Made by a program: the position numbers and the translations under genes | Notes under the pieces: generated by a model | Database searches by the model: none | Told to the model about the DNA's origin: nothing | The model's input: only the letters and a program-made list of their open reading frames with translations | NCBI RefSeq assembly: GCF_016918015.1 | Contig: NZ_JAERMK010000002.1 | Location: 248,001-312,000, forward strand | Direction: 5' to 3' | DNA from: Glycomyces sp. YM15 | Lineage (GTDB): Bacteria; Actinomycetota; Actinomycetes; Mycobacteriales; Micromonosporaceae | DNA length: 64,000 bases | In this document: piece after piece, positions 11,431 through 48,091 of the stretch | Layout of the letters: every line of letters starts with the position of its first letter | How positions within the stretch are numbered: the first letter of the stretch is position 1

Positions 11431-11451
11431 GGAATTACTCCTCTGCCGGAC

Positions 11452-12069: not shown

Positions 12070-12074
12070 CGAAC

Positions 12075-12094: not shown

Positions 12095-12110
12095 CAAGCC
12101 GGGTGTGCCG

Positions 12111-13420: not shown

Positions 13421-13532
13421 CCCCTCCAGACTACGGGACCCCTGACGCGTGTGAAACACTAGTTGCTGCCCATCGCCGGACCACCCGGCACGGCAACCGG
13501 CGCATCGGCGACGATGCCGCCGACCACTTCTG

Positions 13533-13614: not shown

Positions 13615-13629
13615 CCGACCCTCTTCAAC

Positions 13630-13657
13630 GAACCCGGTAGGCAGGCCTGCCGGGTTC
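13630..13657 (+). terminator. terminator after tRNA-Leu
   Basis: GAACCCGG at 13630-13637 pairs with CCGGGTTC at 13650-13657, with an inner GCAGGCCTGC palindrome extending the stem. It lies 16 bases after the tRNA. Confidence 0.65.
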
Positions 13658-13708
13658 ACGGGTTTCCGCTTGCGGATGCAGGAAGAGGACCCGGGTATCA
13701 AGCTCAAG

Positions 13709-13761
13709 AACTGATGCATAACGTCAGTGACGTACGACGTCACTGACGTTATGCATCAGTT
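13709..13761. promoter_or_regulatory. 25-bp perfect inverted repeat with nested palindromes, upstream of the ATPase gene
   Basis: The arms at 13709-13733 and 13737-13761 are perfectly complementary with a 3-base spacer (ACG). Each arm contains its own palindrome, ACGTCA-G/C-TGACGT, and an ATGCAT. The element ends 12 bases before the ATG of the ATPase/DUF234 gene. As RNA it would form a very stable hairpin next to the start codon; as DNA it could be a tandem operator or cruciform. There is no T-run after it, so a plain terminator is less likely. Confidence 0.7.
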
Positions 13762-13773
13762 ACGATTCCGGGT

Positions 13774-15165: not shown

Positions 15166-15454
15166 CGTCCGAGTCTGATCGCACCTTGTCGTTACCAGCG
15201 GCTCGGAGTCTGCGGTCGATCTCGGCCGCGTCCGGTGGCTCGGGCAGGTAGTAGGCGCGGTCGTGCTCGCTGACGTATTCGAGGGCTTCGGTGTGGTCGG
15301 GATGGGCGGTGTCGGCGAGGGCTTCGCGCAGCCATTGGTGGCGCCAGATCCTGCCGCAGTCCTCCGGGGGAGCGGCGAGTACCGCCTTGCGGGCTCGCAC
15401 GCACCGCCTCGGCCAGGCCGTCGGCCATTCGGGGCCGTCTTCGTTTCCGGTCAC
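15155..15454 (-). CDS. small hypothetical protein
   Basis: The 99-residue polar protein, rich in Trp, Asp and Arg, matches no domain I know. The ATG lies 10 bases after the stop of the molybdopterin oxidoreductase gene with GGAG just upstream, so it is probably the second gene of that operon. Its 3' end overlaps the convergent ATPase gene by 11 bases. A true gene is likely from spacing and codon usage, but its function is unknown. Confidence 0.55.
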   Translation of the reverse strand: MTGNEDGPEWPTAWPRRCVRARKAVLAAPPEDCGRIWRHQWLREALADTAHPDHTEALEYVSEHDRAYYLPEPPDAAEIDRRLRAAGNDKVRSDSDAID

Positions 15455-15464
15455 TCCGTTTCGA

Positions 15465-16583
15465 TCACCCCGGTTCGACGCAGTGGACCGGGAGGCGCTG
15501 CACGAGGTTGTTGGCGAAGCCGCCGCGGTTCCAGGGCTGGTCCACCGGTTGGGTGTCGCCTTCGGCGTCGGTCGCGCGGGCGCACAGCATGTGCTCGCCG
15601 GGTACAGCGGTCCAGTCGAACCGCCAGCGGCGCCAGGCCCAGTGGTGCCCGGTCGGTGCGTCGAGAGCGGCTTCGTTCCAGGTGCGGCCGTCGTCGGTGC
15701 TGACCTCGACGGCGGTGACCGGTGCCCTGCCCGACCAGGCGCGGCCTTCGATGAGCACCGGACCGGGGCGGACGACGCGGGCCCGGGACATGAAGTCGGG
15801 GAAGCCGGGCGGGACCATGAGGGCGCGCGGGGCGATGCGGGTGACCGGTGTCCCCTCCTCGTGCGGTTCCTGCCGGATCCGGTAGGCCGTGGTCTGCTGG
15901 AAGCCGGTGAACGGCTGTTCGGCGATCGTGATGTCGCGCAACCACTTCACGTGGGCCATGCCGTACCAGCCGGGCACGACCAGGCGGAGCGGCCACCCGT
16001 GCTGCGGCGGCAGCGGGGCGCCGTTCATGGCGTAGGCGACCAGGACCCCGGGTGCGTCGCCGATGGCCGTGTCGAGCGGGAGGGCCCGCTGGTAGTCCTG
16101 TTCGACGCCGCGTTCGATCCCGTGGTCGGCGCCGGTGAAGACCGCGTCGACGGCGCCGTCGCGCACGCCGGCTTCGGCGAGGAGGGCACGCAGGGGCACG
16201 CCCGTCCAGTCCGCGGTGCCGACCGCTTCGACCAGCCAGGGCTGGCTCACGGGGCGGGGCGTGAGGAGGGCGCGGCCGTTCCCGGCGCATTCCATGGTGA
16301 CGCGGGTGGTGACCGCCGGATGCGACCGCAGGTCGTCCATGCTCAGGCGGAGGGGATGTTCGACGTGGCCGCCGATCGTGAGCTCCCACGCCGCGTCCTC
16401 GGCGACGTACGGGATGTCGTAGTGGGTGAGGACGTAGTGCAGGCCGGGCGGGGTGCGGTCGTAACGGAGGGCTTCGAGCGGCAGGCCGTGGTTGCGGGTG
16501 GCGAGCGAGAGTTCGTCCCGGCCGATGCCCTCCCCGGGCTCGGCCGTCCGGGCGGGCGAGCTGACGTCTTCGATGCGGGCCAT
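15465..16583 (-). CDS. sulfite oxidase-like molybdopterin oxidoreductase
   Basis: The 372-residue protein has the SUOX fold: an N-terminal molybdopterin domain (about residues 20-230) and a C-terminal Mo-co dimerisation domain (about 245-365, with VEVSTDDGRTWNEA and WRRWRFDWTAVPGEH). The Mo-ligating Cys is in VTMECAGNGR (about residue 98), and GWPLRLVVPGWYGMAHVKWL is diagnostic. There is no heme domain and no clear signal peptide, so it is a cytoplasmic or unusual member. The electron acceptor and substrate, sulfite or another oxyanion or sulfoxide, are not decidable. Confidence 0.88.
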   Translation of the reverse strand: MARIEDVSSPARTAEPGEGIGRDELSLATRNHGLPLEALRYDRTPPGLHYVLTHYDIPYVAEDAAWELTIGGHVEHPLRLSMDDLRSHPAVTTRVTMECAGNGRALLTPRPVSQPWLVEAVGTADWTGVPLRALLAEAGVRDGAVDAVFTGADHGIERGVEQDYQRALPLDTAIGDAPGVLVAYAMNGAPLPPQHGWPLRLVVPGWYGMAHVKWLRDITIAEQPFTGFQQTTAYRIRQEPHEEGTPVTRIAPRALMVPPGFPDFMSRARVVRPGPVLIEGRAWSGRAPVTAVEVSTDDGRTWNEAALDAPTGHHWAWRRWRFDWTAVPGEHMLCARATDAEGDTQPVDQPWNRGGFANNLVQRLPVHCVEPG

Positions 16584-16631
16584 GTTCCGATGCTAGGCCC
16601 CAGCGCCGCCGCGTGGGCGGTTGTCGGCCGC

Positions 16632-16661
16632 CGGGCCCCGGCGATCGCCCGCCGGGGCCCG
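16632..16661 (-). terminator. terminator after katG
   Basis: CGGGCCCCGGC at 16632-16642 pairs perfectly with GCCGGGGCCCG at 16651-16661, lying just beyond the minus-strand katG stop. Confidence 0.75.
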
Positions 16662-16666
16662 ATGAC

Positions 16667-18943
<2,277 letters not shown>

Positions 18944-34815: not shown

Positions 34816-36381
34816 GTGAGCGCCACCGCAGTCCGGCCCGAGCAGCCGCCCGCCGCCTGGCGGCCGACGCCGCTCCCCGGCCCCCTCCCCGCCGTCCGGG
34901 CCCGCCTCGCGAGCACCCTCCCGGGCGACTCCCGCCGCGCCCTCTGGGTGACCCTCGTGGTCACCGGGATCGCCGCCGCGCTGCGCCTGATCGGCCTGAA
35001 CCACCCCAAGGGCCTGATCTTCGACGAGGTCTACTACGCGCAGGACGCGCACTCGATGCTGTCCTACGGCGTCGAATGGGATCCGGGCGCGGACGGCTCC
35101 TCGTACGTCGCGCACCCGCCGTTCGGCAAGTGGCTCATCGGCCTCGGCGAATGGGCGTTCGGCTACGACGAGGTCGGCTGGCGCATCGCGGCCGCCGCCG
35201 CGGGCGTCATCGGCGTCGCGGTCCTCATCCGCCTGATGCGCCGCCTCACCGGATCGACGCTCCTCGGCGGCACCGCGGGCCTCCTGCTCGCCGTCGAAGG
35301 CAGCCACCTCGTGCTCTCGCGTACGTCGCTGCTCGACATCTTCATCGCCACGCTCCTGCTCGGCGCCATGTACTGCCTGGTGCGCGACCGCGACTGGCGC
35401 CGCGCGGGCTGGCTCGCCGCGCTCGAGGACGGCCTCGACGTCCGGCGCCGCAGGCCCCGCCTCGGCATGCCCTGGTGGCGGATCGCGTGCGCGGTGCTCC
35501 TGGGGCTCGCCATGGCCGTCAAGTGGAGTGCGCTGTGGTACATCATCGTCGTCATCGTGCTGTACATCGTGTGGGACTGGCGGCTGCGCTGCGACGCGGG
35601 CGCCCGCAAGCCCTTCCGCGACACCCTGATCTACGAGTTCGGCCAGAACCTGTGGTTCGGGCTCCTCGCGGTCGGCGTCTACACGCTCTCGTGGACCGGC
35701 TGGTTCCTCAACGACACCGGCTCCTACCGGCACTGGCTCGCCGACCAGGGCCGGTCCGAGCCGCCCGTCGTCGGCGCGCTCGTCAACTGGATGCAGTACC
35801 ACTTCAGCGTCCTGGACTTCCACAACGGACTCTCCTCCGAGCACTCCTATCAGTCCTGGCCGTGGCAATGGCTGTTCGACCTGCGGCCGGTGGTCTTCTA
35901 CTGGAGCTCGGACGTGAACTGCGGCGCGAGCGACTGCGCGGGCGAGGTGCTCCTCCTGGGGACGCCGCTGCTGTGGTGGACGTTCGTGCCGGCCGCCCTG
36001 GCGCTCCTCGTCTGGGCGCTGCACAAGCGCGACTGGCGGGCCTGGTTCCTCCTGGCGGGGCTCGGCGCGGGCATCCTCCCGTGGTTCATGTACCCCGAGC
36101 GGACGATGTTCTTCTTCTACGCCGCCCCGGCCGTGCCGTTCTTCATCGGCGCGGTCACGTGGTGCCTGGGGTTGATCATCGGCCGTACGGACCTGCGCCG
36201 TAGGAACGCGGCCCTGCCGCCGCTCGGCTCACCGGAGCGGCGCCTCACGGGTGCGCTCATCGCCGGGGCGTTCGTGGCGGTCGTGATCCTCTGCTTCGCG
36301 TACTTCTGGCCGATCTACACGGGCGAGGCCATTCCGCGCGAGGAATGGCACGCGCGCATGTGGCTCGACTCCTGGATCTGA
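34816..36381 (+). CDS. dolichyl/polyprenyl-phosphate-mannose protein O-mannosyltransferase
   Basis: The 521-residue GT39 family protein has about ten membrane helices. The first extracytoplasmic loop has the Asp-Glu catalytic pair in LIFDEVYYAQDAHSM (about residues 74-88) with HPPFGKWLI after it. The C-terminal PMT_4TMC region ends RMWLDSWI. It transfers mannose from polyprenyl-phosphate-mannose to secreted proteins. It starts with GTG at 34816, and a TAGACT box ends 7 bases upstream, so the transcript is probably leaderless. Confidence 0.92.
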   Translation: MSATAVRPEQPPAAWRPTPLPGPLPAVRARLASTLPGDSRRALWVTLVVTGIAAALRLIGLNHPKGLIFDEVYYAQDAHSMLSYGVEWDPGADGSSYVAHPPFGKWLIGLGEWAFGYDEVGWRIAAAAAGVIGVAVLIRLMRRLTGSTLLGGTAGLLLAVEGSHLVLSRTSLLDIFIATLLLGAMYCLVRDRDWRRAGWLAALEDGLDVRRRRPRLGMPWWRIACAVLLGLAMAVKWSALWYIIVVIVLYIVWDWRLRCDAGARKPFRDTLIYEFGQNLWFGLLAVGVYTLSWTGWFLNDTGSYRHWLADQGRSEPPVVGALVNWMQYHFSVLDFHNGLSSEHSYQSWPWQWLFDLRPVVFYWSSDVNCGASDCAGEVLLLGTPLLWWTFVPAALALLVWALHKRDWRAWFLLAGLGAGILPWFMYPERTMFFFYAAPAVPFFIGAVTWCLGLIIGRTDLRRRNAALPPLGSPERRLTGALIAGAFVAVVILCFAYFWPIYTGEAIPREEWHARMWLDSWI

Positions 36382-38175
36382 CCGCCCACAACGAGACCCG
36401 TGCCACACGCCACCCTCGCGGCGGCCCCCCGCGGCTGTGCTAACCTTGTCGCCGCAAGGGGCTTTGGCGCAGTTGGTAGCGCGTTTCGTTCGCAATGAAA
36501 AGGTCAGGGGTTCGAATCCCCTAAGCTCCACCAAAGGGTTCTTACTTGAACCCTGACCCATAGGAAGAACGGCATCAGCCTCCGGGCAGGTGCCGTTTCG
36601 CCGTTCCCGGTCCCGGAACGTCACCAGCGGCGCGATGCTGGCAGTGGCTGTGCCCTGGCTGATCCGGGGGTGCTGGTCGGTGTCGGTGTCCACGTGTAGC
36701 CGGGTGAAGCAGATCGAGTTGAGCGTCTGCCGGTCCTCGTCTGCCAGCGACTCGTAGAGCCGCCTCGGATCCGACAGGAGCTCCAGGAACGGGGCGATGT
36801 GGGCTGCGGCCTGGTCGAGTCGAGGCAGGTCGGTGTCGGCCAGTTGGGTATCGATGGCTTCGCGTTGCGCGGCGATGTCGCGGATCTTGGCGGCGAGTTT
36901 GTCGGTGGGCCAGTCGGGGTCGCCAAGCAAGTCCAGGACCTGGTCCTCCAGGGTGTCGAGTCGGGTGCGTTCGCGTTTGAGGTTGCGGCGCAGGGTCTGC
37001 GCGGTCCGCTCATCGGTCCGGGCGACCTGCTCGAGCCCGTGCCTGGTCCGGCTCGCTTCGTTGGGCGTGAGCGCGATGGTGGCGTAGTGGGCGCTCACTG
37101 CGGCCTCGACATCACCCACGGCGAACCGCGGGAGATCGCAGGTGCCGTTCTCGTTGCGGCCCATGCAGAGGTAGTAGAAGTAGAGGCGGCCGGTCTTGGA
37201 CTTGGCGCGCTCGACGATCAAGCGGCGCCCGCAGCGCCCGCACCAGACGAGGCCTTTGAGGTAGTGGTCCCACTTGCGTTCGCGCACGCCCGCGCCGCGC
37301 TGCTCGGTGAGCACGGCCTGGACCTTGTCGAACAGGGCTCGGTCGATGAGGGCTTCGTGCCGGCCGGGGTAGGCGACGCCGTTGAAGGTGACGGTGCCGA
37401 GGTAGTACGGGTCGGTGAGGATCTGCCCGATCTTGTGGATCGAGACGGCAGTACCGGCCGGATGCTTTCGGGTGGGCCGGGTCTTGAGCCCGGCGGTAGT
37501 GGCGATTTCGCGGAGTTTCTTGAAGGAGTGCTGTCCCGTGGCGTATCGCTCGAAGAGCGTTTTGACGATCGGGGCGCGTTCGGGATCGAGGGTGACGGTG
37601 CGGATTTCGCGACCGTCAATAGTCTCCCGGATGTTCAAGTACCCGAGGGGCGCGCGACCGGGTGTGCCGCCTCGGGCGGCTTTTGCTTCCATCTTGTAGG
37701 CGATGTCCTGCCCCGAGACGCGCGACTGGTACTCGTTGAACCCGTCGACCATATGCGCCATCAGATCCCCGGTGGGCGAGTCGTCGGTGGGGTCCTTCAC
37801 CGACAGGATCGCGACGCCGAGGCCGCGGAGTTCGCGTTTGGTGAGTCCGGCGTCGGTGGCGTCGCGGAACAGCCGCGAGCGCATGTATACCACGACGAAG
37901 TCGACATCGCGCTGATTGCGAATCCGCCCCATCATCTTGCGGAATGCAGGGCGACCGTCAATTGAGCGGGCGGACTTGCCCGGCTCGACGTACTCGTCGA
38001 CAACGGTAAGACCCATGCGCTCAGCGAGCGCCAGACACGCATTCCGCTGGGCGGGGATCGAGTTCCCCTCGGGGTCGTAGTCGGTCTCAACCTGGCCTCG
38101 GGAAGAGACTCGCAGGTAGACCACTGCTCGCCCGCCGATGGGCGTCTCGCTCGTCTTGTCAGGTTGGCCGTTCAT
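36229..38175 (-). CDS. large serine recombinase (integrase) whose C-terminus is replaced by host DNA
   Basis: The frame starts at 38175 with MNGQPDKTSETPIGGRAVVY. It has a resolvase catalytic domain (nucleophile Ser24 in YLRVSSRGQ; VVVYMRSRLFRDATD), a Recombinase domain (about 175-290), a zinc ribbon (CGRCGRRL, later YLCMGRNENGTC), and a coiled-coil motif (about 395-450). Residue 549 (Val-Glu-Leu, codons at 36531-36523) falls in the att core. Residues after it are antisense tRNA-Ala (RGFEPLTFSL) and antisense of the mannosyltransferase gene, so they are host-derived. In the excised circle the same frame continues into the HTH segment at 47611-47901. It is coupled to the upstream small gene by an ATGA overlap. 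Confidence 0.92.
   Translation of the reverse strand: MNGQPDKTSETPIGGRAVVYLRVSSRGQVETDYDPEGNSIPAQRNACLALAERMGLTVVDEYVEPGKSARSIDGRPAFRKMMGRIRNQRDVDFVVVYMRSRLFRDATDAGLTKRELRGLGVAILSVKDPTDDSPTGDLMAHMVDGFNEYQSRVSGQDIAYKMEAKAARGGTPGRAPLGYLNIRETIDGREIRTVTLDPERAPIVKTLFERYATGQHSFKKLREIATTAGLKTRPTRKHPAGTAVSIHKIGQILTDPYYLGTVTFNGVAYPGRHEALIDRALFDKVQAVLTEQRGAGVRERKWDHYLKGLVWCGRCGRRLIVERAKSKTGRLYFYYLCMGRNENGTCDLPRFAVGDVEAAVSAHYATIALTPNEASRTRHGLEQVARTDERTAQTLRRNLKRERTRLDTLEDQVLDLLGDPDWPTDKLAAKIRDIAAQREAIDTQLADTDLPRLDQAAAHIAPFLELLSDPRRLYESLADEDRQTLNSICFTRLHVDTDTDQHPRISQGTATASIAPLVTFRDRERRNGTCPEADAVLPMGQGSSKNPLVELRGFEPLTFSLRTKRATNCAKAPCGDKVSTAAGGRREGGVWHGSRCGRSDPGVEPHARVPFLARNGLARVDRPEVREAEDHDRHERPGDERTREAPLR
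36458..36533 (+). tRNA. tRNA-Ala(CGC), target site of the integrated element
   Basis: The 76-base tRNA has acceptor GGGGCTT/AAGCTCC with the alanine identity pair G3:U70, anticodon loop TTCGCAA (anticodon CGC), T loop TTCGAAT, and an encoded CCA. A TAACCT box lies 11 bases upstream. Its last 11 bases, AAGCTCCACCA, are repeated at 47902-47912. Its own hairpin terminator is displaced to 47930, so an element has inserted exactly at the 3' end and restored the gene. Confidence 0.93.
36523..36553 (+). other. attL of the island
   Basis: Core AAGCTCCACCA (36523-36533) is followed on the element side by 9 bases and then TACTTGAACCC (36543-36553). That last block is the exact reverse complement of GGGTTCAAGTA at the other end, giving the right arm of a symmetric attP. 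Confidence 0.85.
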
Positions 38176-38543
38176 GCCGCGTCCCTCTCGCTCCGAACAT
38201 CGTCGTCACGGGCCGCGTCCTGGTCCGGACACCCGCTGTCTGCCGTCGGCGTGTCAGCGGCTTCCTGGGCGCGTCTGGCGGCGCGCAGCAACAGTGCGGC
38301 CAGCCGGTCGGTGTCGATGGTTTCCCGCCGCGCCCCGGTGACCCGGATCCGCTTCGAAACCCGGCTCACCGCCCCCACCACCAAGCAAAACTGCAGGTAG
38401 CGGCCCTGATGGCGACCGTAGCGCGGACTCGCTGCGGGTACGAGCTTTCGGATGGGCAGATCTGAAACGCTCGATGGAGCACTCGGCGGTGCGTGATTGC
38501 AGGCGTAGGCAAGGCGGGCGTCTCGCGCCGTCCTCAGGACCAA
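38172..38543 (-). CDS. small basic protein coupled to the integrase
   Basis: The frame of up to 123 residues ends in a TGA overlapping the integrase ATG by 4 bases, which argues that it is translated. The last 65 residues (GAVSRVSKRIRVTGARRETI, then DRLAALLLRAARRAQEAADT) look protein-like; the first part is less convincing, so the true start may be an internal GTG near 38390. No domain is recognised. Position makes a recombination accessory or directionality factor possible, but this is inference only. Confidence 0.5.
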   Translation of the reverse strand: MVLRTARDARLAYACNHAPPSAPSSVSDLPIRKLVPAASPRYGRHQGRYLQFCLVVGAVSRVSKRIRVTGARRETIDTDRLAALLLRAARRAQEAADTPTADSGCPDQDAARDDDVRSERDAA

Positions 38544-38742
38544 GGTCGCTCGAAGGTAGCTCGTTCCTGGATGCGCGTCAAGATCATCGATTTTCGGGCC
38601 GGGAGGCCGGTCGGCAGTCGCAGAGCAGGCCTCGCAGGCCGGAAACGCTCAGATTCGGAGTAAATATGTCGGGCCAACTTCTGACCCCTCCACGCATCCG
38701 CTATCGCAAGGCCTCTCAACGGCAATGACCTTGTCGAGCGGA

Positions 38743-38860
38743 TGTCACAACCGGGCTGTGACAGGGGTTGCGTCTCATCCTGCATGTCGATGGCGGGCGA
38801 GAAGCAAGGTCAAACTCAGGGTGAAAGTCGTGGGGAGAACGGAAGCGGCCACAACACAGG
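38743..38860 (+). repeat. diverged 110-bp repeat, copy 1
   Basis: It begins with the dyad TGTCACA-N7-TGTGACA (38743-38763), continues ACAGGGG, and ends in a GGAACGG/CACA-like stretch. Similarity to copy 2 at 39584-39695 is spread over the whole length. It lies in the 335-base spacer 38544-38878, where I see no gene. Confidence 0.65.
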
Positions 38861-38878
38861 TGCTGCGCGCGGGACGCG

Positions 38879-39394
38879 TCAGAAATAGCCGAAGAACCGA
38901 GCCCACCAGTCGGGCCGCTCACCGTCCAGGGACTCCTGGCTCGGCCCTTCATAGTCGCGGCCCAGCAGTTCCTCGGGAACTACGACGTATCCGAGATCCT
39001 TCAGCGCCTGATCGACCCTCACAAGGTCGTCCGCGTGCAGTGCCCTCTCGTCTATCGCCTCGGCCGTACTGAGGAACGCGCCTGGATTGTCGGCGCAAAT
39101 GAGGGCCAGGTTTCCGAACTTGCTGACGCAAACGACCAGCCTGGAATCGCCTTTCAGCGCCGCTGCAGGCACGTGGATGCGCCCGTATTCGCTGGAATCT
39201 TGGGTGTCTTGTTCAGACTCGCAGCGAACCGCAAAATCCTGTTCGAGCCGCGCCACCAGCCGGCCGAAGGGCTCGGCGCACTTCCTGCGCTCGTAGCCCT
39301 GTGGCCACTCCAAGTGGACAGGATCGTCAAGCTCGCGCAGCAGCGCCAACAGTTCCGATTCGCTTGAAGGCATGCAGTCATCATCAAGGAGCAC
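38879..39394 (-). CDS. hypothetical protein, small acidic
   Basis: The acidic protein of 164 to 171 residues may start at ATG 39373 (MPSSESELLALLREL) or GTG 39394. It has an N-terminal Leu-rich helix, a central RLVVCVSKFGNLALICAD strand pair, and a C-terminal VVVPEELLGRDYEG then DWWARFFGYF. The combination of a compact acidic fold and a Trp-Trp-Arg-Phe tail is reminiscent of small immunity-like proteins common in actinomycetes. I cannot assign a family. No toxin gene adjoins it. Confidence 0.65.
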   Translation of the reverse strand: MLLDDDCMPSSESELLALLRELDDPVHLEWPQGYERRKCAEPFGRLVARLEQDFAVRCESEQDTQDSSEYGRIHVPAAALKGDSRLVVCVSKFGNLALICADNPGAFLSTAEAIDERALHADDLVRVDQALKDLGYVVVPEELLGRDYEGPSQESLDGERPDWWARFFGYF

Positions 39395-39583
39395 TCAGAT
39401 GGGGCCTGCAGGGGCACAGAAGCGGCTGAGACCCGCCAACTATCGCCCCACATCAGCAACCAGTCCTCGCCCGTCTCTTCCGAGAAATGCTGCTGGCCCG
39501 AGTACATAAGTTGCCCCCCATTTGGCTCTGCGCGAGCGCCGCTCCCCTCTCGCCCGGCACCTTAATTGACCTGCGCATCTAGT

Positions 39584-39695
39584 TGTCACGAACGCTTGGT
39601 GACAGGGGCGGCATCTCTCCCGGCACCTGGTTGGCCGGTGAGATGCCGGGTCAGGTGCTGGGGCAAACCTCCGGGTGGAACGGCCACTGTCACAG
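39584..39695 (+). repeat. 110-bp repeat, copy 2, upstream of the HD gene
   Basis: It starts with the dyad TGTCAC-N9-GTGACA (39584-39604) and contains a second perfect dyad, GGCATCTC (39610-39617) with GAGATGCC (39639-39646). It ends in ACTGTCACAG. It lies 38 bases before the HD-domain gene, so it may hold that gene's control region. The 338-base spacer 39395-39732 contains no other feature I can support. Confidence 0.65.
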
Positions 39696-39732
39696 ACGTT
39701 GGCTCGACCATCCGGATCGATAGGATTGTCGA

Positions 39733-40299
39733 GTGCAGTCGAGCATGGTCAGCAGTGCGCGCGCTCTCGCGGAGCGGAAGCTCAGCGAGGCGTTGCCTCG
39801 ACGATGGCGACATGTTCAAGCGGTGACCGCCAAGGCCGAACGGCTTTCCCTAGTGCTCCGTGTCCAGCAGGATCGCGAGACGCTTGTCGCGTCTGCAGCG
39901 CTCCACGACATCGGCTACGCACCCTCGATCGATACGACTGGATTCCATCCATTGGACGGGGCGCGTTGGCTTCGCGAGATCGGGTTCAACGACCGGGTGG
40001 CCGCGCTGGTCGCCCACCACACCAATGCACTTGCCGAAGCTGAACAGCGAGGTCTCGACAAGGAGTTGTCCGGGGAGTTCGACCGTGAAGCCTCGCCCGT
40101 GGCGGACCTGCTTTGGTACTGCGACCTCACGACCGGCCCTGACGGACAGGCCTTCACGGTCGAGGAGCGGATAGCCGAGGTCCAGGAACGATATGAGCCT
40201 GACTCGGTCGTCTACGAGTTCATCACGGGCAGTGCCAGCGTATTTGCCGAGGTTGCGAAACGAGTCGAACCGATGTTGCCGTCAGCTCAACCAATGTAG
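39733..40299 (+). CDS. HD-domain phosphohydrolase-like protein
   Basis: This 188-residue soluble protein has an HD superfamily metal site: first His in RRWRHVQAVTAKA (about residue 27), HD pair in SAALHDIGYAPS (about 58), and later VAALVAHHTNA (about 93) and LLWYCDLTTG (Asp about 127). Such small HD proteins hydrolyse nucleotides or phosphoesters. The GTG start at 39733 has TAGGAT six bases upstream and no ribosome binding site, so the transcript is probably leaderless. It is convergent with the NUDIX gene (13-base overlap of stops). Confidence 0.78.
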   Translation: MQSSMVSSARALAERKLSEALPRRWRHVQAVTAKAERLSLVLRVQQDRETLVASAALHDIGYAPSIDTTGFHPLDGARWLREIGFNDRVAALVAHHTNALAEAEQRGLDKELSGEFDREASPVADLLWYCDLTTGPDGQAFTVEERIAEVQERYEPDSVVYEFITGSASVFAEVAKRVEPMLPSAQPM

Positions 40300-40757
40300 G
40301 GCTCGCCGTCGTTCGCAAAGCCGTGCTCGATTCGGAGCCGCATCGACGGATTGATCGGAAGAGCGTCAAGCTCATCTGCGCCAATCCAGCCAACCTGGGT
40401 GGACTCGGCGCTGGTGGCGAGCGATCCGCCGATCGGCTTGGCCCGGAAGGAGATCGAGAACTGCTGCCGGACCTCGCCATCGCTGTACTCGATCAAGTGA
40501 TCAGGGTCGGTGTAGAGGCCGATGATGCCAGTGACCTCGATGTCCAGGCCGGTCTCTTCCTTCGTCTCGCGGACTGCGGTGTCGGCGATTCGCTCTCCCA
40601 GGTCGTGCCCACCGCCGGGTAGGGCCCAGTCGCCGTTGTCCGAGCGCTGGATGAGCAGAACCCGGCCTTCGTCATCGGTCACGAACGCGACTGTCGAGGG
40701 CACGACGCTGTTCGGCTCGGGGGCATCGGGGTTGTTGATGTGGTCGATGCGGCTCAT
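40287..40757 (-). CDS. NUDIX hydrolase
   Basis: The 156-residue protein has the NUDIX box as GHDLGERIADTAVRETKEETG (about residues 50-70), matching GX5EX7REUXEEXG, and upstream VLLIQRSDNGDWALPGGG. It is an MutT-like pyrophosphohydrolase of unknown substrate. Its ATG overlaps the stop of the XRE-type gene by 4 bases, so both proteins are made from one operon. Confidence 0.9.
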   Translation of the reverse strand: MSRIDHINNPDAPEPNSVVPSTVAFVTDDEGRVLLIQRSDNGDWALPGGGHDLGERIADTAVRETKEETGLDIEVTGIIGLYTDPDHLIEYSDGEVRQQFSISFRAKPIGGSLATSAESTQVGWIGADELDALPINPSMRLRIEHGFANDGEPYIG

Positions 40758-41521
40758 GGCCTCACCTTGCCATGGTCGCCGGTCCAGGCGTCGCGCGAAG
40801 CGGTCCAGACTCGGTCGAAGCTGTCGGCGTAGGAGTTGAACAGGGTGCCACCGGCGAGTCGGCGCAGATGCATGACCGGGGCGTGCGCTGCCGGAAAGCC
40901 GTAGACGTGGGTGTTGACCAGCATCTCGTCGTCATAGCGGTAGATGCTGTTGTACAGCGTCGAAGTGTGGAAGCCGACGAACACGCCTTCGGTGCCTCTG
41001 AGCTTCTCGTAGAACGCCAGGACATTGCGGATCTTCGCAGCAAGCGCATCGCCGATGCCCTCCTCACGGCCGCGGACCGCTACGGCTCCACAGTCAGGAT
41101 CTCCGAGCAGGACCGTGATCTTGGTGCCCGCTTCGGCTTTGCGCTGCAGCGCCTCGATCAGGTGCGGATCATGCTCGGGTAGGAACAGCCCGGAGTACAC
41201 GAGAATCCCGATCCGCTCGGTAGCGTTGTCGAACAATCGCCGCCACAGTTCCGACGGCACCTGAAAGCGGCGCGGGTAGGTCCGGATCACCTCGGACTCC
41301 GACACACGCGCTTGCCGCTCGGCCGTGTCGATGTTGGGCCACAGGTACTCCTCAGCCTCGTCCAGCATCGCGGCGATGGCGGAGCGGTGCCGAGGGTACG
41401 GAGTGCGGCCGATACTGATCCACCGTCTCACGGTCTTGGCATCGACCTCCAGCTCGTCGGCCAGCGACTCCGGCGTCATCCCGGACGCTTGCAGGGCATC
41501 CTTCAATCGGTCATTCGGCAT
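40754..41521 (-). CDS. XRE-family regulator with C-terminal DUF5919-like domain
   Basis: From the ATG at 41521 (GGGAG upstream) there are 255 residues. An N-terminal helix-turn-helix (LKDALQASGMTPESLADELE, then DAKTVRRWISIGRTPYPRHR) is followed by a C-terminal alpha/beta domain. That domain has VYSGLFLPEHDPHLIE, ITVLLGDPDCGAVAVRG, FHTSTLYNSIYRYDDEMLVN and a terminal SFDRVWTAS. It resembles a phospholipase D-like fold in which the catalytic HKD has been reduced. The family occurs in actinomycetes next to NUDIX and HD genes. Regulatory role and ligand are inferred. Confidence 0.72.
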   Translation of the reverse strand: MPNDRLKDALQASGMTPESLADELEVDAKTVRRWISIGRTPYPRHRSAIAAMLDEAEEYLWPNIDTAERQARVSESEVIRTYPRRFQVPSELWRRLFDNATERIGILVYSGLFLPEHDPHLIEALQRKAEAGTKITVLLGDPDCGAVAVRGREEGIGDALAAKIRNVLAFYEKLRGTEGVFVGFHTSTLYNSIYRYDDEMLVNTHVYGFPAAHAPVMHLRRLAGGTLFNSYADSFDRVWTASRDAWTGDHGKVRP

Positions 41522-41680
41522 GAGCACTCCCAATCGTGGACGACTTCGATGCGTGAGGACGTCTCTTCGCGTCCCATTGTGTAGTTCTGTCGTCCCGTTC
41601 TGTCAACCACCATGTTCATATGCCGCTTTTCCACCGGGTCAGATGGCTGGGCGGTCAAACGGACGACAGGGAGGAAGTCG

Positions 41681-42259
41681 ATGACGCAAACACAGGTCAC
41701 GGGTCGGACCGTCCAGTCCGAGGTGCTGGGCGAATGGACTACCGATCACGGCAACCGGCTCACCCTCATGGCCCGCCGGGCGACGGGCTACGCCTCGATC
41801 TGGCTGAACCGCCACGGCAAACCAGTCAAGATCGGCTACGCGGTCCACGCGGGGGGCGTGCTCCGCGAGGTCCGCTGGGAACCGCTCTGGAACGAGCAAA
41901 CCGATGCCTGGAAGACCCAACAACGCAACCACATCGCCGCCCTCATCGCCGCCTGGCATGCCGAAGGCACAGTCCCGCCCGAACCCGCGGCGCTTCCCGC
42001 GAGCGTGCTCGGCACCTTCGACTCCTTCGGCTTCCGCTTCGCTGTCGAACCGACCGCCACCGCCGAACACGCCATCCTCAGCATCCTCAACGTGGCAGGC
42101 AGCCTCACACCCGTCGCCGACCTCCTCCACGAGCAAGGACGCATCGCCGGCATGTCAACTCGCCCCGGCTGGAAGAGCACCCCCGACGACCGCAAACGCC
42201 ACTGGCGCCACGAGTCCGAAGCTATCCTCACCCAAGCAGCCGAACGAGGCCGCCTCTAG
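41681..42259 (+). CDS. hypothetical protein of the island
   Basis: The 192-residue protein starts at 41681 with AGGGAGGA upstream. It shows TTDHGNRLTLMARRATGYAS, a Trp-rich middle (VRWEPLWNEQTDAWK), and a basic C-terminus (KSTPDDRKRHWRHESEA). No domain is recognised. It is divergent from the XRE-type gene across a 159-base spacer and has chromosomal-type high GC, unlike the genes that follow. Confidence 0.65.
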   Translation: MTQTQVTGRTVQSEVLGEWTTDHGNRLTLMARRATGYASIWLNRHGKPVKIGYAVHAGGVLREVRWEPLWNEQTDAWKTQQRNHIAALIAAWHAEGTVPPEPAALPASVLGTFDSFGFRFAVEPTATAEHAILSILNVAGSLTPVADLLHEQGRIAGMSTRPGWKSTPDDRKRHWRHESEAILTQAAERGRL

Positions 42260-42716
42260 ACCTTCCTCCAACGGGCGGGGCCGCCAGGTGGGTGGCGAGC
42301 CCCGCCACCAACTCGCCGCACCGATCCTCCGAGTCTCGAGGGAGAGGGCGAGCAACTCGGAATCTGGCTGCCTCCAGCAGACTTCGCTGTCCTGACAACC
42401 CTAGAATTAGCGCTGGAAGCACAGCACGGCGCTCTAACGATCGTCGCCACAACCGCGCTAGGCACAGTCTTCCCCCTACGCCATAGTTCGCCGAAGGAAG
42501 GTGGGTGAAGGATGTGGAAGCGTTGAAGCATACGCCCGTGTCACCGCTGGATCCTAGTGGCGCTAAACCAAGCATGACCTAAGCTAGGGTCCTCGAGTTC
42601 GGTAGAATTCAGAATCGGGTTGTTCGGAGCCCGCACTCGGCGCAACAGATCCCTGGAGTTACTCGCACCTCCGGGTCAGACATCAAAGTATATCCGGCTG
42701 TATATGGAGTGACTAC
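42260..42716. other. spacer before the AT-rich operon, no gene
   Basis: Base composition falls from high to moderate GC across these 457 bases, which marks the left edge of the AT-richer block. A short uninterrupted reading frame exists near 42300-42507 but has no start signal. The last 40 bases contain TATATC and TATATG boxes and a GGAG ribosome binding site for the next gene. Confidence 0.5.
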
Positions 42717-44300
42717 ATGGATACAAAAAGTGAGTTGATAAATCGACCTAGGCCTAGCACCTGGAGTATTCCTGAGCTTGTAGCTGAAGCGACTAGTGGA
42801 AATCTCAGGATTCCAAACTTCCAAAGAAAATTCACATGGGATCAGAGCGATGTTAAGAAGCTATTCGACAGTATTTGGAGGGGGTTTCCTATCGGCAATC
42901 TTCTCCTTTGGCGAAATCGCGCTGAGGCCGGAACTGTCAATCTCGGGCCGATATCGATTCAAGCCGATGCGCGGCCAGATGCCCTCTGGGTGGTTGATGG
43001 ACAGCAACGAATTACTTCAATTGTTTGCGTTCTTAACAAGGATTTCAAGGCGCAAGATGAACGGTTTCAGATCTACTTTGATCTTCGTCGGAAGCATTTT
43101 GTTTCAAAGGGCAAAGGTGTACCGCCATGGTGGATTCCTGTAAGCGAGGCTCTTGAGACTCGAACACTACTTTCCTGGCTGCGCGAGAAATCAGTGGATC
43201 TTGAGGAGGATGATCTTACGGTCGCTGACGCACTTGGAGGGGCAATACGAGATTACCAAGTTCCGGCGTATATAGTTGAAGGCAACGACGATTCTTTGCT
43301 CCGAGAAGTATTCGACCGCGTTAATTCTGCTGGAAAACCAATCGGACGCGCGGAAACATTCCATGCGCTCTTTGCTAGTGAATCAGAGCCTGGGAGCCCA
43401 GCAACGGTAGTCGAGAGTCTGAAAAGACTGCGATTCGGAGAAATCGATGCAGATCGCGTAGTCCAGAGTCTCCTTGCACTAAGGGGCGGGGACGTCCAGC
43501 GAGATATTCGTGATGAATTTGATGCTGGTGAGGATCCAGCTGAATGGTATGATCTCGTGGAGGTTGCTCTGGAGCGAGCGATCTCGTTTCTTCGATCCGA
43601 GGGAGTCCCGCATCTATTGCTGACTCCTTCTTCATTGCCGCTTCCAGTACTGGCTGTATTCTTTCATCTACACCCGGATCCTGATCCTTGGACAAGACAA
43701 CTTCTCTCTAAATGGCTGTGGCGAGGCTGGGCACTGGGATTTGGGCAAACGGGGCAAACTCCAGCATTGCGGCAAGCCATTCGGGCAGTCAACCCTAAAA
43801 AGAAGCGCAATGACTTGATTCCCAACGAGTTTGACGCCGTATCTGCGCTCATCAAGCTGGTACCTGACGATGAGCCACCGGTTCCCGCCCTTGAGCCTTT
43901 CAAGACCAATTCTGCTGCAGGGAGACTGTGTCTCCTCGCCCTCGCATCACTGACACCACTCGACAGGGAAGGCAACCCGGTAGATATTGCCTCGGAGCTT
44001 GGCAAGAATGGGTCCGCTGCAATTACAGAACTCGTGCCCTCCAAACGTGCGAATCTAGCTTCCAGAGGATTCTGGCCCATCGAAATGCGGAGGCCAAATG
44101 GAAATGAAGACGACAACATACTTATGAGTCATGGAATCGATTCCGTGGCGGCGCACGCTCTTAGAATTGGGAACATTGATGAATTCCTTGAAGCTAGAAG
44201 TTCCGTGATATTGCCTGTCATACGGAATTACGTTTCGGTTCGAGTGGATGCGAGGGCCTTGATTCGTCCGCCGCTTTCAAATCTGCTGGTTGAGGACTAG
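42717..44300 (+). CDS. DUF262 domain protein (GmrS/DndB-like ParB-fold NTPase family)
   Basis: The 527-residue protein has an N-terminal DUF262 domain with RIPNFQRKFTW (about residues 31-41) and the diagnostic DGQQRIT (94-100), plus FDRVNSAGKPIG. Helical regions follow, and no DUF1524 HNH nuclease half is seen. DUF262 occurs in type IV restriction enzymes (GmrSD), in BREX- and Dnd-related systems and in stand-alone defence proteins. Here the GmrD-like nuclease is missing and a HipA-like kinase is the partner. Base composition is clearly AT-richer than flanking genes, so it was recently acquired. The ATG is supported by GGAG 8 to 11 bases upstream. Confidence 0.85.
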   Translation: MDTKSELINRPRPSTWSIPELVAEATSGNLRIPNFQRKFTWDQSDVKKLFDSIWRGFPIGNLLLWRNRAEAGTVNLGPISIQADARPDALWVVDGQQRITSIVCVLNKDFKAQDERFQIYFDLRRKHFVSKGKGVPPWWIPVSEALETRTLLSWLREKSVDLEEDDLTVADALGGAIRDYQVPAYIVEGNDDSLLREVFDRVNSAGKPIGRAETFHALFASESEPGSPATVVESLKRLRFGEIDADRVVQSLLALRGGDVQRDIRDEFDAGEDPAEWYDLVEVALERAISFLRSEGVPHLLLTPSSLPLPVLAVFFHLHPDPDPWTRQLLSKWLWRGWALGFGQTGQTPALRQAIRAVNPKKKRNDLIPNEFDAVSALIKLVPDDEPPVPALEPFKTNSAAGRLCLLALASLTPLDREGNPVDIASELGKNGSAAITELVPSKRANLASRGFWPIEMRRPNGNEDDNILMSHGIDSVAAHALRIGNIDEFLEARSSVILPVIRNYVSVRVDARALIRPPLSNLLVED

Positions 44301-44319
44301 AAGAAATCGAGGGTGCGTG

Positions 44320-45600
44320 ATGGAGACTCGACACATTGCACAACGGTCCTTGCGTGTAGAAATACAGAAACCTGACGGGGTATGGGTCAAAGTCGGGAAT
44401 CTCAATCATTCTCATGACATAACATGGTTCGAAAGTGATGCGGGCTATTGGGAGACTTCCCAGCGACCAATCTTGGGCCAGATATTCGAAGAGCGAGGAC
44501 GAAGCTGGAGACCAAGTGCCAGAATGTCGCTGCCCAACTGGTTCTCCCAATTGTTGCCAGAGGGGATGCTCCGTTCCGCGGTTGCTAGGGCTGCTGGAGT
44601 CGACAGTAAGCGCGAGTTCTTCTTGCTTGCTCGCATCGGAAGAGATGACCTTCACGGTGCAGTTCGAGTTCAGTTTGATGAGTCAGCCAATTTGAGTGAG
44701 CCGCCAGAAGTCTCTGAAGAGCATGAAACTGATGACTCCGACAACCCCTATCTCAAATTTAGTCTTGCAGGCGCACAGCTGAAATTTTCCGTCGTACGAG
44801 CTGGGAAAACTGGCCTTACCATTTCGGCGCGTGGAGAAGCTGGAAACTGGATTGTGAAGCTCCCCGACGGGCGTGCAGGATTCGACGGAGTTCCAGAAGC
44901 GGAGCTTGGCGCAATGGAACTTGCTAGACGAGTTGGCATCGAAGTTCCTGAGACAATGATGATAAAGGCATCTAATATACCCGGACTGCCAAAGGTCGTA
45001 AGTGATATACCGGGGGATTCATTTGCGGTAAAACGATATGACCGTCTGGAAAACGGGGGACGAGTGCATGCAGAAGAGCTTGCCCAGATCCTGGATATTC
45101 CAACTGGCAACGAGTTTCACAAGTATCGCCGTGCCAATTTTGAGACAGTGGCATCCGTCATCGGAGGTCTGTGTGGTCGTGAATCGGTTGGCCTTGTTCT
45201 CGATCGTATCATTCTCAATATCTTGATTGGTAACGGTGACGCCCATTTGAAGAACTGGTCCGTCGTGTATCCGGATGGTCGTATCCCAATCCTTAGTCCA
45301 CTTTACGATGTGGTCCCCACGGTTCTGTATATGCCGACAATCGGAACGGGTCTGAACCTAAATCGCTCTCAGTCATTTGGAGTGATACAGCTCAGGAGCT
45401 TTGACAAACTGCTGAATCGCGCCGAATGGGAATTGAATGAGGGGCGCAGTCGGATGCGGGAAATGACCCAAAAGATTGAAACTGAATGGAATGTATTGCG
45501 GGATCATCTGTCGAAGGAGAATTTCAATAAGCTGACTCGGAGGCGCAATTCCCTCGGTCTTTTCAGAGAGATTCAAAATCTATTGGACTTAATTACCTGA
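44320..45600 (+). CDS. HipA-like serine/threonine kinase, second gene of the DUF262 operon
   Basis: The 426-residue protein starts at 44320 (GAGGG upstream), 19 bases after the DUF262 stop. HipA features: N-terminal couple domain with LLPEGMLRSAVAR, the P-loop SLAGAQLKFSV with Ser148 at the place of the E. coli HipA autophosphorylated Ser150, nucleotide Lys180 in WIVKLPD, catalytic NGDAHLKNW (305-313) and metal Asp330 in SPLYDVV. All catalytic residues are present. No HipB-type antitoxin is adjacent. A TTA leucine codon sits three codons before the stop, rare in such genomes. HipA kinases phosphorylate translation factors or tRNA synthetases; the target here is unknown. Confidence 0.87.
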   Translation: METRHIAQRSLRVEIQKPDGVWVKVGNLNHSHDITWFESDAGYWETSQRPILGQIFEERGRSWRPSARMSLPNWFSQLLPEGMLRSAVARAAGVDSKREFFLLARIGRDDLHGAVRVQFDESANLSEPPEVSEEHETDDSDNPYLKFSLAGAQLKFSVVRAGKTGLTISARGEAGNWIVKLPDGRAGFDGVPEAELGAMELARRVGIEVPETMMIKASNIPGLPKVVSDIPGDSFAVKRYDRLENGGRVHAEELAQILDIPTGNEFHKYRRANFETVASVIGGLCGRESVGLVLDRIILNILIGNGDAHLKNWSVVYPDGRIPILSPLYDVVPTVLYMPTIGTGLNLNRSQSFGVIQLRSFDKLLNRAEWELNEGRSRMREMTQKIETEWNVLRDHLSKENFNKLTRRRNSLGLFREIQNLLDLIT

Positions 45601-45851
45601 GAGCTGCGGGACCGCTCCACACATATGCAATAAGCCGTTTCATGCCGGATTGGCCCGGTTCTGATGGTTGTCGGTGAAGTGCAATCGTGGGCGCGAAAAT
45701 CGTGCGGCTCATCGTCATGGCGCACAAGTACTCTTAGCAGGGCACAGACTTACGCAGCCGGACTCGTACTCGGCGCGGACTGCAGTCGCCACCTCAACTC
45801 GCATTGAGGAGCCGGTGTACGGCTCCATGAACACATCGCCAAGGAGCAGCC

Positions 45852-47342
45852 ATGGGCAGCATGCCTTCCCCCTGGAAACTGGTTCCAGATTCAAGGCCTA
45901 TCGAATCGGGTCAGGCTTTTGTCTTCCGGGTGCAGCGTCGCGATGATCCGAAGGTTTATGCGCTCAAACGCTGGAAGAACCCGAAGCGGATGGACCGCTT
46001 CGAGCGCGAGTTCACCAGCATGAACGAACTCGCGGCGCTTGAAGTCCCGGTGCCTCCGGTCATCGATCACCGTCTCGATGACCCAAAGCCCTGGTACGTC
46101 ATGCCCTGGTACGACGAGGGTTCCCTTGACTCGCTGGTGGAGGGAGACCGCTCACAGCGAACGACCCAGGAGCGCATCGAGATCGTGGATGCGGTTGCGC
46201 GCGCCCTCTCCATGATCCATGAGCATGGCATCGCTCATCGGGATATTAAACCGGGGAACATCCTGCTGAACGGGATCGGCATTCTAGTTACCGATTTCGG
46301 CTTGTGCCTGTCGCTGGAGGACGAACGACTGACGGGTGTCAATGAGGCGGTTGGTCCGAGGCTGTACACCGCGCCCGAGAACCGGTCGGGATTCTCCGAG
46401 CTCCTCGATCAGCGGCCTGCGGATTTCTATTCCTGGGGGAAGCTGGCGTGGGCCGTAGTTGCCGGACAATATCCGACTGACGGTGAAGAGGTCCTCCTTC
46501 CCGAATATCGGCTCGAGATTCTCCTTCGCGATGACCGCCTCTCCGGGCTTCATGCCCTGTTCGAGCGACTCCTGGTTCGTGACCCGCGGAGCAGGCTTGT
46601 GGACTGGGGGCCTGTGCGACGGCAGCTTGCCGAGGTGCTTCAGGAATATGATGGCCGGACGCGCGCCGATGCAGGTGAAGAACGGCCCTCGTTCACTGCG
46701 GCGATCTCGACGGCGCACCGCATCGCGTTGAAGGCTGGCGCCGCAGCCCGCATCGCCGAGCGAGAGCGGGTTGCGTGGCGCCACAAGGCTGTTCGCGAGC
46801 TTCAGTTGCTAATGTTTCCGGAGATGCACAGAATCATCGGCGAAGACCTTGGATTCTTTAACGATGCGGCCAAACGGGAGGTCGAGGCGAGCCTGACTAG
46901 CGGCGGAGATTCCCTTGCTGCGATGCTCTACCACATCGACTTCATTCCTGGTCCCGAGGCGGACCAGCACAGCCTCGATGACAACTCGCACGCCATGATG
47001 AGCCTGTCCTGGAAATCTGATCCAGAACGTGAAAACGCCGATATCTTCCTTTTCCTCTCCCACTACACCCTGATCGAAGGCGATTCGGTGAGGCTCATCA
47101 GGATTCCGACGATCCATCGAAACGGCGACCCCTCAAGAAAGTTCGAAGGCGTTGAAGGCTTGGTGCACGTTTCCGAACCGTTGCCGCTCAGCCTTGCCGT
47201 CACGCAGAATGACGTCGTGCGCCTCATCGGCCAGAGCGCCCGAGTGTTCCGCAACCTCGTCATTCGCTGGGCACAGTTCATCGAAGAGGGCCTCGATCCC
47301 TACACCCAAGAAGACTGGACCCTCCCGGCCCACACAGACTGA
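45852..47342 (+). CDS. soluble Ser/Thr protein kinase with unassigned C-terminal region
   Basis: The 496-residue protein has no membrane helix. Hanks kinase domain (about residues 15-270): ATP Lys39 in VYALKRW, catalytic HRDIKPGN (129-136), DFG (148-150), activation-segment YTAPENR. The C-terminal 225 residues contain a charged coil (RIAERERVAWRHKAVRELQL) and an alpha/beta region (ADIFLFLSHYTLIEGDSV). They have no PASTA, Forkhead or WD repeat that I recognise. AAGGAGCAGCC precedes the ATG. It lies 251 bases after the HipA-like gene with its own leader. Cytosolic kinases of this plan occur in phage defence islands. Confidence 0.85.
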   Translation: MGSMPSPWKLVPDSRPIESGQAFVFRVQRRDDPKVYALKRWKNPKRMDRFEREFTSMNELAALEVPVPPVIDHRLDDPKPWYVMPWYDEGSLDSLVEGDRSQRTTQERIEIVDAVARALSMIHEHGIAHRDIKPGNILLNGIGILVTDFGLCLSLEDERLTGVNEAVGPRLYTAPENRSGFSELLDQRPADFYSWGKLAWAVVAGQYPTDGEEVLLPEYRLEILLRDDRLSGLHALFERLLVRDPRSRLVDWGPVRRQLAEVLQEYDGRTRADAGEERPSFTAAISTAHRIALKAGAAARIAERERVAWRHKAVRELQLLMFPEMHRIIGEDLGFFNDAAKREVEASLTSGGDSLAAMLYHIDFIPGPEADQHSLDDNSHAMMSLSWKSDPERENADIFLFLSHYTLIEGDSVRLIRIPTIHRNGDPSRKFEGVEGLVHVSEPLPLSLAVTQNDVVRLIGQSARVFRNLVIRWAQFIEEGLDPYTQEDWTLPAHTD

Positions 47343-47396
47343 CCGAGACGGCCTACGCGTGCGGATACCGACCTAATTCCGATTACCATTGAGCGC

Positions 47397-47564
47397 ATGG
47401 GGTGGTGCCGCCACAACGGCGAGGATAAGCAGATCACCGAGGAACACATCCCGCCGCGGGCTACGGGGAACGACGGCCAGGGCAAGCTCTACGTTGAGAA
47501 GCACGGCGGGTTTGACGGCTATGCGACTTTTGGGACGGTCCTGGCAATCGCCAAAGGACGATGA
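47397..47564 (+). pseudogene. N-terminal remnant of an HNH-like (EHIPP) protein
   Basis: A 55-codon frame reads MGWCRHNGEDKQITEEHIPP, then RATGNDGQGKL and a stop. The segment C-x-H-x-G and K/T-E-E-H-I-P-P-R-x-x-G-N is the beginning of a widespread HNH-type protein class that normally exceeds 200 residues and has a second metal motif. The rest is gone, so this is probably a truncated gene left by rearrangement near the island end. Confidence 0.5.
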
Positions 47565-47610
47565 ATCGCTCCTATCAGTGCTTGACAATTCCACAGGAAG
47601 TATTCGCTGA

Positions 47611-47913
47611 CTATGCTTCGGTTTTCATCTCGCTTACCCTCGTCTTCCGAACGAGGCGCTTGATGCTGGAGAGACTGATCCCGTAGTGGTCTGCGAGGAC
47701 TTGTTGGTGGACGCCCTCTTGGCACGCGGTCACGATGGCATTCCTGACTTCGTCGGACAGGCGGCGACTCAACGCCCAGGCTTTGGCGGTGCCTTGGGGT
47801 GGGATTGCGGGGTCAGGAATCGGGGCGGGCCGGGTGAGCAGGTCGGGGAGCTGGTTTGCGTGGGTGTTGAGCTGGGGTGATGGGTTCAAGTAGGCCGATG
47901 CAAGCTCCACCAC
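47611..47913 (-). CDS. helix-turn-helix segment, detached C-terminus of the integrase
   Basis: Minus-strand frame of 100 codons that begins inside the attR core (GTG-GTG-GAG-CTT reads VEL, the same codons as in the integrase at attL). The last 55 residues form a helix-turn-helix: LSRRLSDEVRNAIVTACQEG, then VHQQVLADHYGISLSSIKRL. This resembles the C-terminal HTH tail of many actinomycete large serine recombinases. In the circular element it is in frame with the integrase and adds 96 residues after Leu551. Whether it is translated alone from its GTG while integrated is unknown; no ribosome binding site is evident. Confidence 0.75.
   Translation of the reverse strand: MVELASAYLNPSPQLNTHANQLPDLLTRPAPIPDPAIPPQGTAKAWALSRRLSDEVRNAIVTACQEGVHQQVLADHYGISLSSIKRLVRKTRVSEMKTEA
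47882..47912 (+). other. attR of the island
   Basis: GGGTTCAAGTA (47882-47892) is followed by 9 bases and the core AAGCTCCACCA (47902-47912). Joined to the attL right half this gives a 51-bp attP with perfect 11-bp inverted arms equally spaced from the core. Confidence 0.85.
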
Positions 47914-47929
47914 ATCTACCAGGCAAAAG

Positions 47930-47956
47930 AGGCCACAAGGTTATCCCTTGTGGCCT
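47930..47956 (+). terminator. displaced tRNA-Ala terminator
   Basis: AGGCCACAAGG (47930-47940) pairs with CCTTGTGGCCT (47946-47956) around a 5-base loop, followed by TTTCT. It sits 17 bases beyond the attR core, where the terminator of an uninterrupted tRNA-Ala would lie. Confidence 0.8.
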
Positions 47957-48091
47957 TTCTGCTACTCGATCTGCTACCGATTGGTCGGCATATCCCCAGG
48001 TCAGGGGCTAGATTCTTGTCACCTATGCGCCGTGCCGCCCCCTCCGGGCATCGACCAGTTCCGCGATGCGTTTCACTCGCGCAGTCGCATG

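Follow-up and report, generated by a model that had tools for sequence, protein, structure and literature searches.

What becomes of an integrase gene when the site at which it integrates lies within its own coding sequence? The question is raised by a window of 64,000 nucleotides (nt) of the soil bacterium Glycomyces sp. YM15 (assembly GCF_016918015.1, contig NZ_JAERMK010000002.1, 248,001–312,000), and coordinates given below without a locus designation are positions in this window. The window holds an integrative element of approximately 11.4 kb. Its large serine recombinase (LSR) very probably carries the attachment site attP inside its own coding sequence, and integration into a tRNA-Ala gene would thereby split the integrase gene (int), leaving a C-terminal helix-turn-helix (HTH) segment, here called the tail, at the far end of the element. 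We consider it likely that this split architecture goes together with a tail that is selected as part of a fused protein.

Attachment sites and integrase reading frame

The target is the tRNA-Ala (cgc) gene at 36458..36533 on the plus strand, of which the element uses the 3′ end. An 11-nt core, AAGCTCCACCA, lies at this 3′ end (attL, 36523..36533, plus strand), where the minus strand reads the codons ..TG GTG GAG CTT; a second copy is located at 47902..47912 on the plus strand (attR). The P′ arm TACTTGAACCC (36543..36553) lies inside the last int codons, and the P arm GGGTTCAAGTA (47882..47892) lies inside the first codons of the tail. Arms GGGTTCAAGTA and TACTTGAACCC form a perfect 11-nt inverted repeat in register, each 9 nt from the core, and none of 20,000 random pairs drawn from the window matched this run length. 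Because the core copies are flanked at this distance by inverted-repeat halves, the predicted attP has the form of a symmetric LSR site. To the right of attR, on the B′ side, there is a terminator-like hairpin of the host tRNA gene (47930..47956).

We compared 30 tRNA-Ala loci of the genus (L235–L264) with the right flank of the window. In four of them (L249, L256, L261 and L264), a sequence with 84–92% identity to this flank over 63–90 nt begins 3–10 nt behind the tRNA-Ala gene. The tRNA is of the cgc type in L249, which differs by a small indel next to the core, and of the ggc type in the other three. On this alignment, the four loci represent the unoccupied arrangement and confirm the boundary of the element.

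The element-encoded part of int (36535..38175, minus strand) consists of 547 codons, and codon 548 is made of one element base and the first two bases of the core. It encodes a large serine integrase with the domain order of an LSR, an N-terminal Resolvase domain (residues 17–170) followed by Recombinase (198–291) and Zn_ribbon_recom (306–363) domains in Pfam, and it matches the PHROG 95 integrase family with an E-value of 6.1e-79. Ser24, which we take to be the catalytic serine, is invariant in an integrase alignment of 13 rows. Seven named genome records encode a relative of this integrase; all of them are Glycomyces, and the nearest of the seven is 92% identical.

In the integrated state, the int frame (36229..38175, minus strand, 648 residues) continues beyond the core, first through the antisense of tRNA-Ala and then into host DNA. 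The codons GTG GAG CTT stand in the same phase at both core copies, which gives a predicted circle product of 548 + 99 = 647 residues and an integrated form of 551 + 97 further residues. The first-pass annotation had reported the coordinates, the codon phase, the lengths and a 647-residue circle product replaced on integration by one with about 97 host-derived residues, and all were reproduced when rechecked. Its placement of attP inside the int coding sequence is likewise supported by the core, the phase, the 11-nt inverted-repeat arms and the unoccupied tRNA-Ala relatives.

All Pfam matches to Resolvase, Recombinase and zinc-ribbon domains lie upstream of the core and the last ends at residue 363, so a changed enzyme is expected rather than a dead one. 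The integrated form probably keeps its catalysis and loses only the accessory HTH. The earlier suggestion that the integrase is competent only as a circle found no support in that form: besides the position of the LSR domains, the part of int upstream of the core spans residues 63–514 of a solved SP-beta LSR of 545 residues, and relatives at L053, L063 and L100 have no tail.

Close to its 3′ end, int contains an inverted repeat (36568..36597) that may serve the tRNA gene as a replacement terminator. More generally, hairpins within the last int codons, in the window and in other elements, may substitute for the tRNA terminator displaced by integration.

The stranded C-terminal tail

The tail occupies 47611..47910 on the minus strand and consists of 99 residues from the Val-Glu-Leu (VEL) codons plus a stop codon; its HTH domain lies at 47620..47754 on the same strand (model residues 53–97). 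The sequence gives weak HTH matches in domain and profile searches. In the AlphaFold model, the predicted local distance difference test (pLDDT) score is 50–57 for residues 1–50, 79–85 for residues 51–90 and 58 for the last block, and the HTH thus sits on a linker that is modelled as poorly ordered. Tn3 resolvase chains 5cy1 and 5cy2 took ranks 1, 3, 5 and 6 in a Foldseek search with the tail, but with E-values of only 0.17–0.25, and no match reached 0.001 or better.

From the loci examined, we recovered 51 distinct tails of nearly full length. The HTH part showed a median ratio of nonsynonymous to synonymous differences (pN/pS) of 0.41 in the 117 of 1275 pairs with an HTH-part pN below 0.30, and a median dN/dS of 0.31 in 81 unsaturated pairs. 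When the same 117 pairs were read in the five other frames, pN/pS was 1.22, 1.62, 0.96, 0.57 and 1.66. By these measures of sequence divergence, the tail frame shows purifying selection in its HTH part. In the first 15 codons, the median pS was 0.25, about half the value of 0.51 for the HTH part; here the nucleotides themselves are conserved, which would be expected if these codons also serve as the P arm.

A start signal of the tail's own is hard to recognize. No Shine-Dalgarno (SD)-like motif precedes the VEL codons in the window, where VEL is a possible rather than an established translation start. An SD-like 4-mer was present upstream of the core codon in only 4 of the 51 tails and absent from 47 (no control set was used), and 19 of the 51 begin with a codon that is not a start codon (GTC, CGT, GCG, GCC or CCG). 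A coding frame that is selected but has no consistent start of its own is best explained by translation as part of int, and we therefore find it likely that the selection acts on the fused int-tail protein. A second HTH stands behind the first in some tails (L122, L123 and other loci).

One locus preserves such a fusion in decayed form. In L073 (G049:C17), within an array adjoining tRNA-Ala(ggc), the frame 4185–4718 runs from an integrase C-terminus through the core (VVEV) into a tail without meeting a stop codon, and the tail frame is then lost within the HTH. This fossil is the sole clean in-frame int-core-tail fusion that was found. Together with the 51 homologous tails, it bears out the earlier view that the stranded frame is a conserved HTH tail, predicted to join int in frame on excision. 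An apparent LSR-tail fusion at L020, from another genus, was dropped; by eye, the LSR C-terminus and the tail are in different frames.

Recurrence, target choice and alternative explanations

An integrase match (E-value 1e-20) was found in 21 of 22 genomes of the genus, with 48 matches listed. We examined 40 integrase rows representing 39 places (L039 and L106 coincide); some few of these rows are fragments or contain an internal stop. A tRNA or tmRNA gene was called at the int end in 34 of the 40, and the frame passes its 3′ end in all 34, by 33–1230 nt. The called targets comprise eight tRNA types (Ala, Leu, Trp, Gln, Pro, Arg, Val and Glu) and one tmRNA call. The six rows with no called tRNA are L039/L106, L043, L098, L100 and L114; those of L043 and L098 end in a peptide resembling antisense tRNA. 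When int ends were compared with tail starts in ten rows, the longest shared string covered the core in five, all of which were in phase; two of the ten were in phase on 6-nt matches outside the core. In a sample of 101 genomes from the family, 11 contain a relative of the tail. At an E-value of 1e-6, such relatives occur in at least 32 of 397 genomes of the order and at least 15 of 394 of the class, own genome included; the order and class counts are lower bounds, with at most 12 candidates scored per genome. Most of the tail matches listed sit in short open frames. At L201 (G108:C27), only about the last 39 int codons stand beside a tRNA-Ala(ggc) gene, with the P′ arm kept and the rest of int missing.

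The variety of targets may be explained by the geometry of the attachment sites. The attP arms read GTTCAAGT, and their GTTCAAG resembles the T-loop GTTCGAA of the tRNA (36510..36516, plus strand), which we propose as a putative zinc-domain motif of attB. Measured from the core start, GAAC lies at offset 20 in the T-loop complement and at 25 in the tail-side arm, a shift of 5 bp with the T-loop nearer the core. For LSRs, Rutherford and colleagues (PMC3783163) describe a zinc-domain motif that is displaced by 5 bp between the two sites, lying further out in attP than in attB; in the window, this displacement is seen for the tRNA half of attB only. Counted from the antisense T-loop codon, GTTC stands at exactly −32 in 25 of the 36 int loci compared, including loci with Ala, Leu, Trp, Arg, Pro, Val and Glu targets. 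Among the 51 tails, 39 have GAAC at +23 relative to the first core codon (37 when only the first GAAC of each tail is counted), compared with a mean of 0.4 and a maximum of 3 after codon shuffling. The pattern of motifs suggests that this integrase family probably uses the tRNA T-loop as the zinc-domain motif of attB and that target choice rests on it, which would explain why several tRNAs are targeted.

The right half of the window attB holds no evident counterpart of the T-loop motif, which speaks against the T-loop proposal. A number of observations weigh against the split-and-fused reading. GTTC at −32 is absent from all five Gln loci, which counts against the T-loop proposal as well. An upstream tail was seen at only 6 of 18 int loci (L036, L037, L038, L040, L041 and L047), and the Trp, Gln and Arg loci among the 18 showed none. 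The automatic phase test gave a clear answer only for rows in which the core falls within the longest shared string; L040, L041 and L047 came out of phase on 7–8-nt matches outside the core, although their GTG codons align by eye. Some of the counted integrases carry internal stops (e.g. L041), and the tails and integrases are homologous, so that their agreement does not amount to many independent events. The integrases of L053, L063 and L100 end naturally, with neither a fused tail nor a tRNA gene at the end, and the tail is evidently not needed by every family member; L053 and L063 stand outside the 40 rows. SD-like motifs were counted without a control set, and some tails could have a start of their own upstream of the core, as the in-frame ATG of L003 illustrates. 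The L073 fossil has decayed, and it may have arisen where two neighbouring elements adjoin. Finally, searches of phages, plasmids and viral contigs yielded no free circle and no intact full-length int-tail gene. The window tail had no match in plasmids or phages, and nothing was confirmed in viral contigs searched with the window tail and integrase; a two-HTH tail from L158 gave one plasmid match (36% over 61% of the query) and none in phages. A scan of the 22 genus genomes for attP-like patterns returned only attL-type sites, seven in six genomes. The alignment of the tail with C-termini of full-length integrases, which the first-pass annotation had anticipated, is thus borne out by the L073 fossil only, and its counterpart in a free, intact gene was not found.

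At L100, a tail frame (4509–4790) lies approximately 0.2 kb upstream of the naturally ending integrase (5002–6468), away from any tRNA gene.

Three other explanations can be set beside this reading. The overlap may be neutral: an LSR that tolerates any C-terminal extension would save space by placing attP at the 3′ end of int, and the tail would have no role in recombination. The canonical domains upstream of the core, the tail-less relatives L053, L063 and L100, and the wide variation among the C-termini of integrated forms all fit this explanation. Purifying selection on the HTH part in its own frame speaks against it, as does the recurrence of tail relatives, both in 11 of the 101 family genomes and beyond the family, within the order and class, and we consider it unlikely. 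Still less probable is a suicidal integrase of the kind represented by SSV and pT26-2, in which the integrated form would be inactive and excision would depend on another copy that supplies the complete enzyme. More than one integrase match is indeed present in several genomes of the genus, and the split-gene logic, the translated attachment site and the many tRNA targets are shared with the archaeal systems as portrayed in parts of PMC8371274. In that portrayal, however, the archaeal C-terminal fragment holds the catalytic domain, whereas here the catalytic Resolvase domain is at the N-terminus and the LSR domains are not parted by the split.

The tail could also be a small HTH gene in its own right, located next to attR and translated from its own start, whose product acts as a regulator or directionality factor. 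The window tail frame can indeed start at GTG, and of nine tail matches found by one search of the YM15 genome, eight lie on contigs other than that of the element, none of the eight on a contig with an integrase match. Against this stand the shared codon phase of tail and int at the core, the scarcity of SD-like motifs, the 19 tails with no start codon at the core and the existence of a fossil int-tail fusion, and we regard a separate gene as highly improbable. Translation of the tail as part of int remains our preferred explanation.

Possible state switch and tail exchange, and relation to known systems

Under the split-gene reading, attP would sit between the catalytic and DNA-binding part of the enzyme (roughly residues 1–500) and the C-terminal HTH tail, and integration into tRNA-Ala would cut int at the core. 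The integrated copy would then make an LSR ending in antisense-tRNA and host residues, with the tail left at the far attR without a recognizable start signal. Excision should rejoin int and tail into the 647-residue protein, so that the fused form would be made in the circle. The tail would consequently be present when the circle integrates and absent when the integrated copy is expressed. It is possible, and we propose tentatively, that the tail acts as an accessory DNA-binding module and so makes the difference between an integrating enzyme (with the tail) and an excising one (without it).

The genome of YM15 contains two integrase matches and at least 12 tail matches. At tRNA-Ala(ggc) in the same genome (G000:C23), an array consists of the tRNA gene, a core and a terminator-like hairpin, followed by two units of genes, tail, core and hairpin, and no integrase match was found in two stretches of this array (L064 and L065). 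A further and rather doubtful idea is that the integrase is remodelled by its own reaction and shares a chromosomal pool of exchangeable tails. An int element might excise together with cassettes, whereupon the tail of the outermost cassette would become the integrase C-terminus; the int element could then leave alone, restoring attB at the tRNA, and the array would grow much like an integron. Cassette units may thus travel in a composite circle and stay behind when the int element excises alone, swapping tails. As a proposal, this tail exchange fits the order of parts in the arrays and may account for it.

Within L064 (G000:C23:95000-114900), the stretch 11068–17338 consists of cassettes that follow tRNA-Ala(ggc) and have no integrase; an orphan tail, a core and a tRNA-terminator-like hairpin close each of them. 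One of them encodes a protein of 690 residues whose start resembles GmrSD/DUF262 proteins by eye.

Apart from int, the element carries an open reading frame, ORF215 (41612..42259, plus strand), that is conserved in many related elements and whose homologues adjoin integrases with Ala, Leu, Trp and Gln targets. It had no match in Pfam, NCBIfam, PHROGs or PADLOC, and a fold search returned no significant match; its model comprises two β5-α repeats. ORF215 is a candidate directionality factor or DNA-binding partner. The plus-strand cargo at 42717–47342 resembles defence genes. It encodes a GmrSD_N / PDC-M55C-like protein (42717..44300; domain and PADLOC matches), a HipA-like protein (44314..45600; domain match) and a protein kinase (45852..47342) with PD-T4-6 as its best PADLOC match, all on the plus strand. 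The G+C content of 42001–48000 is 51–62% per kb, well below that of the host flanks.

In model LSR systems, attP is not known to lie within the integrase gene. Phages with attP inside a repressor gene alter the C-terminus of a regulatory protein on integration, whereas in the Glycomyces element the gene that is cut is that of the integrase itself. Its domain order is that of the LSRs of A118/LI, SP-beta (SprA/YokA) and phiC31, and its attP arms lie 5 bp outside the position of the attB motif, in agreement with the account of LSRs in PMC3783163; it differs from them in that attP is inside int and followed by an HTH tail, and in that the proposed target motif is the T-loop. Integration into tRNA genes by serine recombinases is called rare in a passage of PMC3218068. 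The Ralstonia phage phiRSM1, according to sections of PMC3816273, also combines a resolvase-like serine recombinase with a tRNA 3′ end and a short core, but its attP lies between ORF14 (the integrase) and ORF15 rather than inside the integrase gene.

The closest parallel in logic is found among the tyrosine integrases of the SSV type and pT26-2, which split their own genes and are described as exclusively archaeal in passages of PMC8371274. As presented there, they too have attP within the integrase frame, are split at tRNA genes, translate the codons of the attachment site and use many tRNA targets within one family. The Glycomyces enzyme is bacterial and is a serine rather than a tyrosine recombinase (only serine-recombinase domains matched), and its split removes an accessory HTH while the catalytic domain stays with int. 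A serine integrase with attP inside its own gene was not found in the open-licence literature searched. The logic of the self-splitting integrase is known from archaea, and here it is bacterial, belongs to an unrelated enzyme class and recurs through a genus.

The system offers a natural comparison of LSRs with and without a C-terminal domain, in a group of enzymes for which directionality is a central question. The proposed recognition of the T-loop would predict the way in which a single LSR family gains access to several tRNA genes, and this would bear on the use of LSRs as genome tools. Some of the short orphan HTH frames in actinobacterial genomes may be scars of integration.

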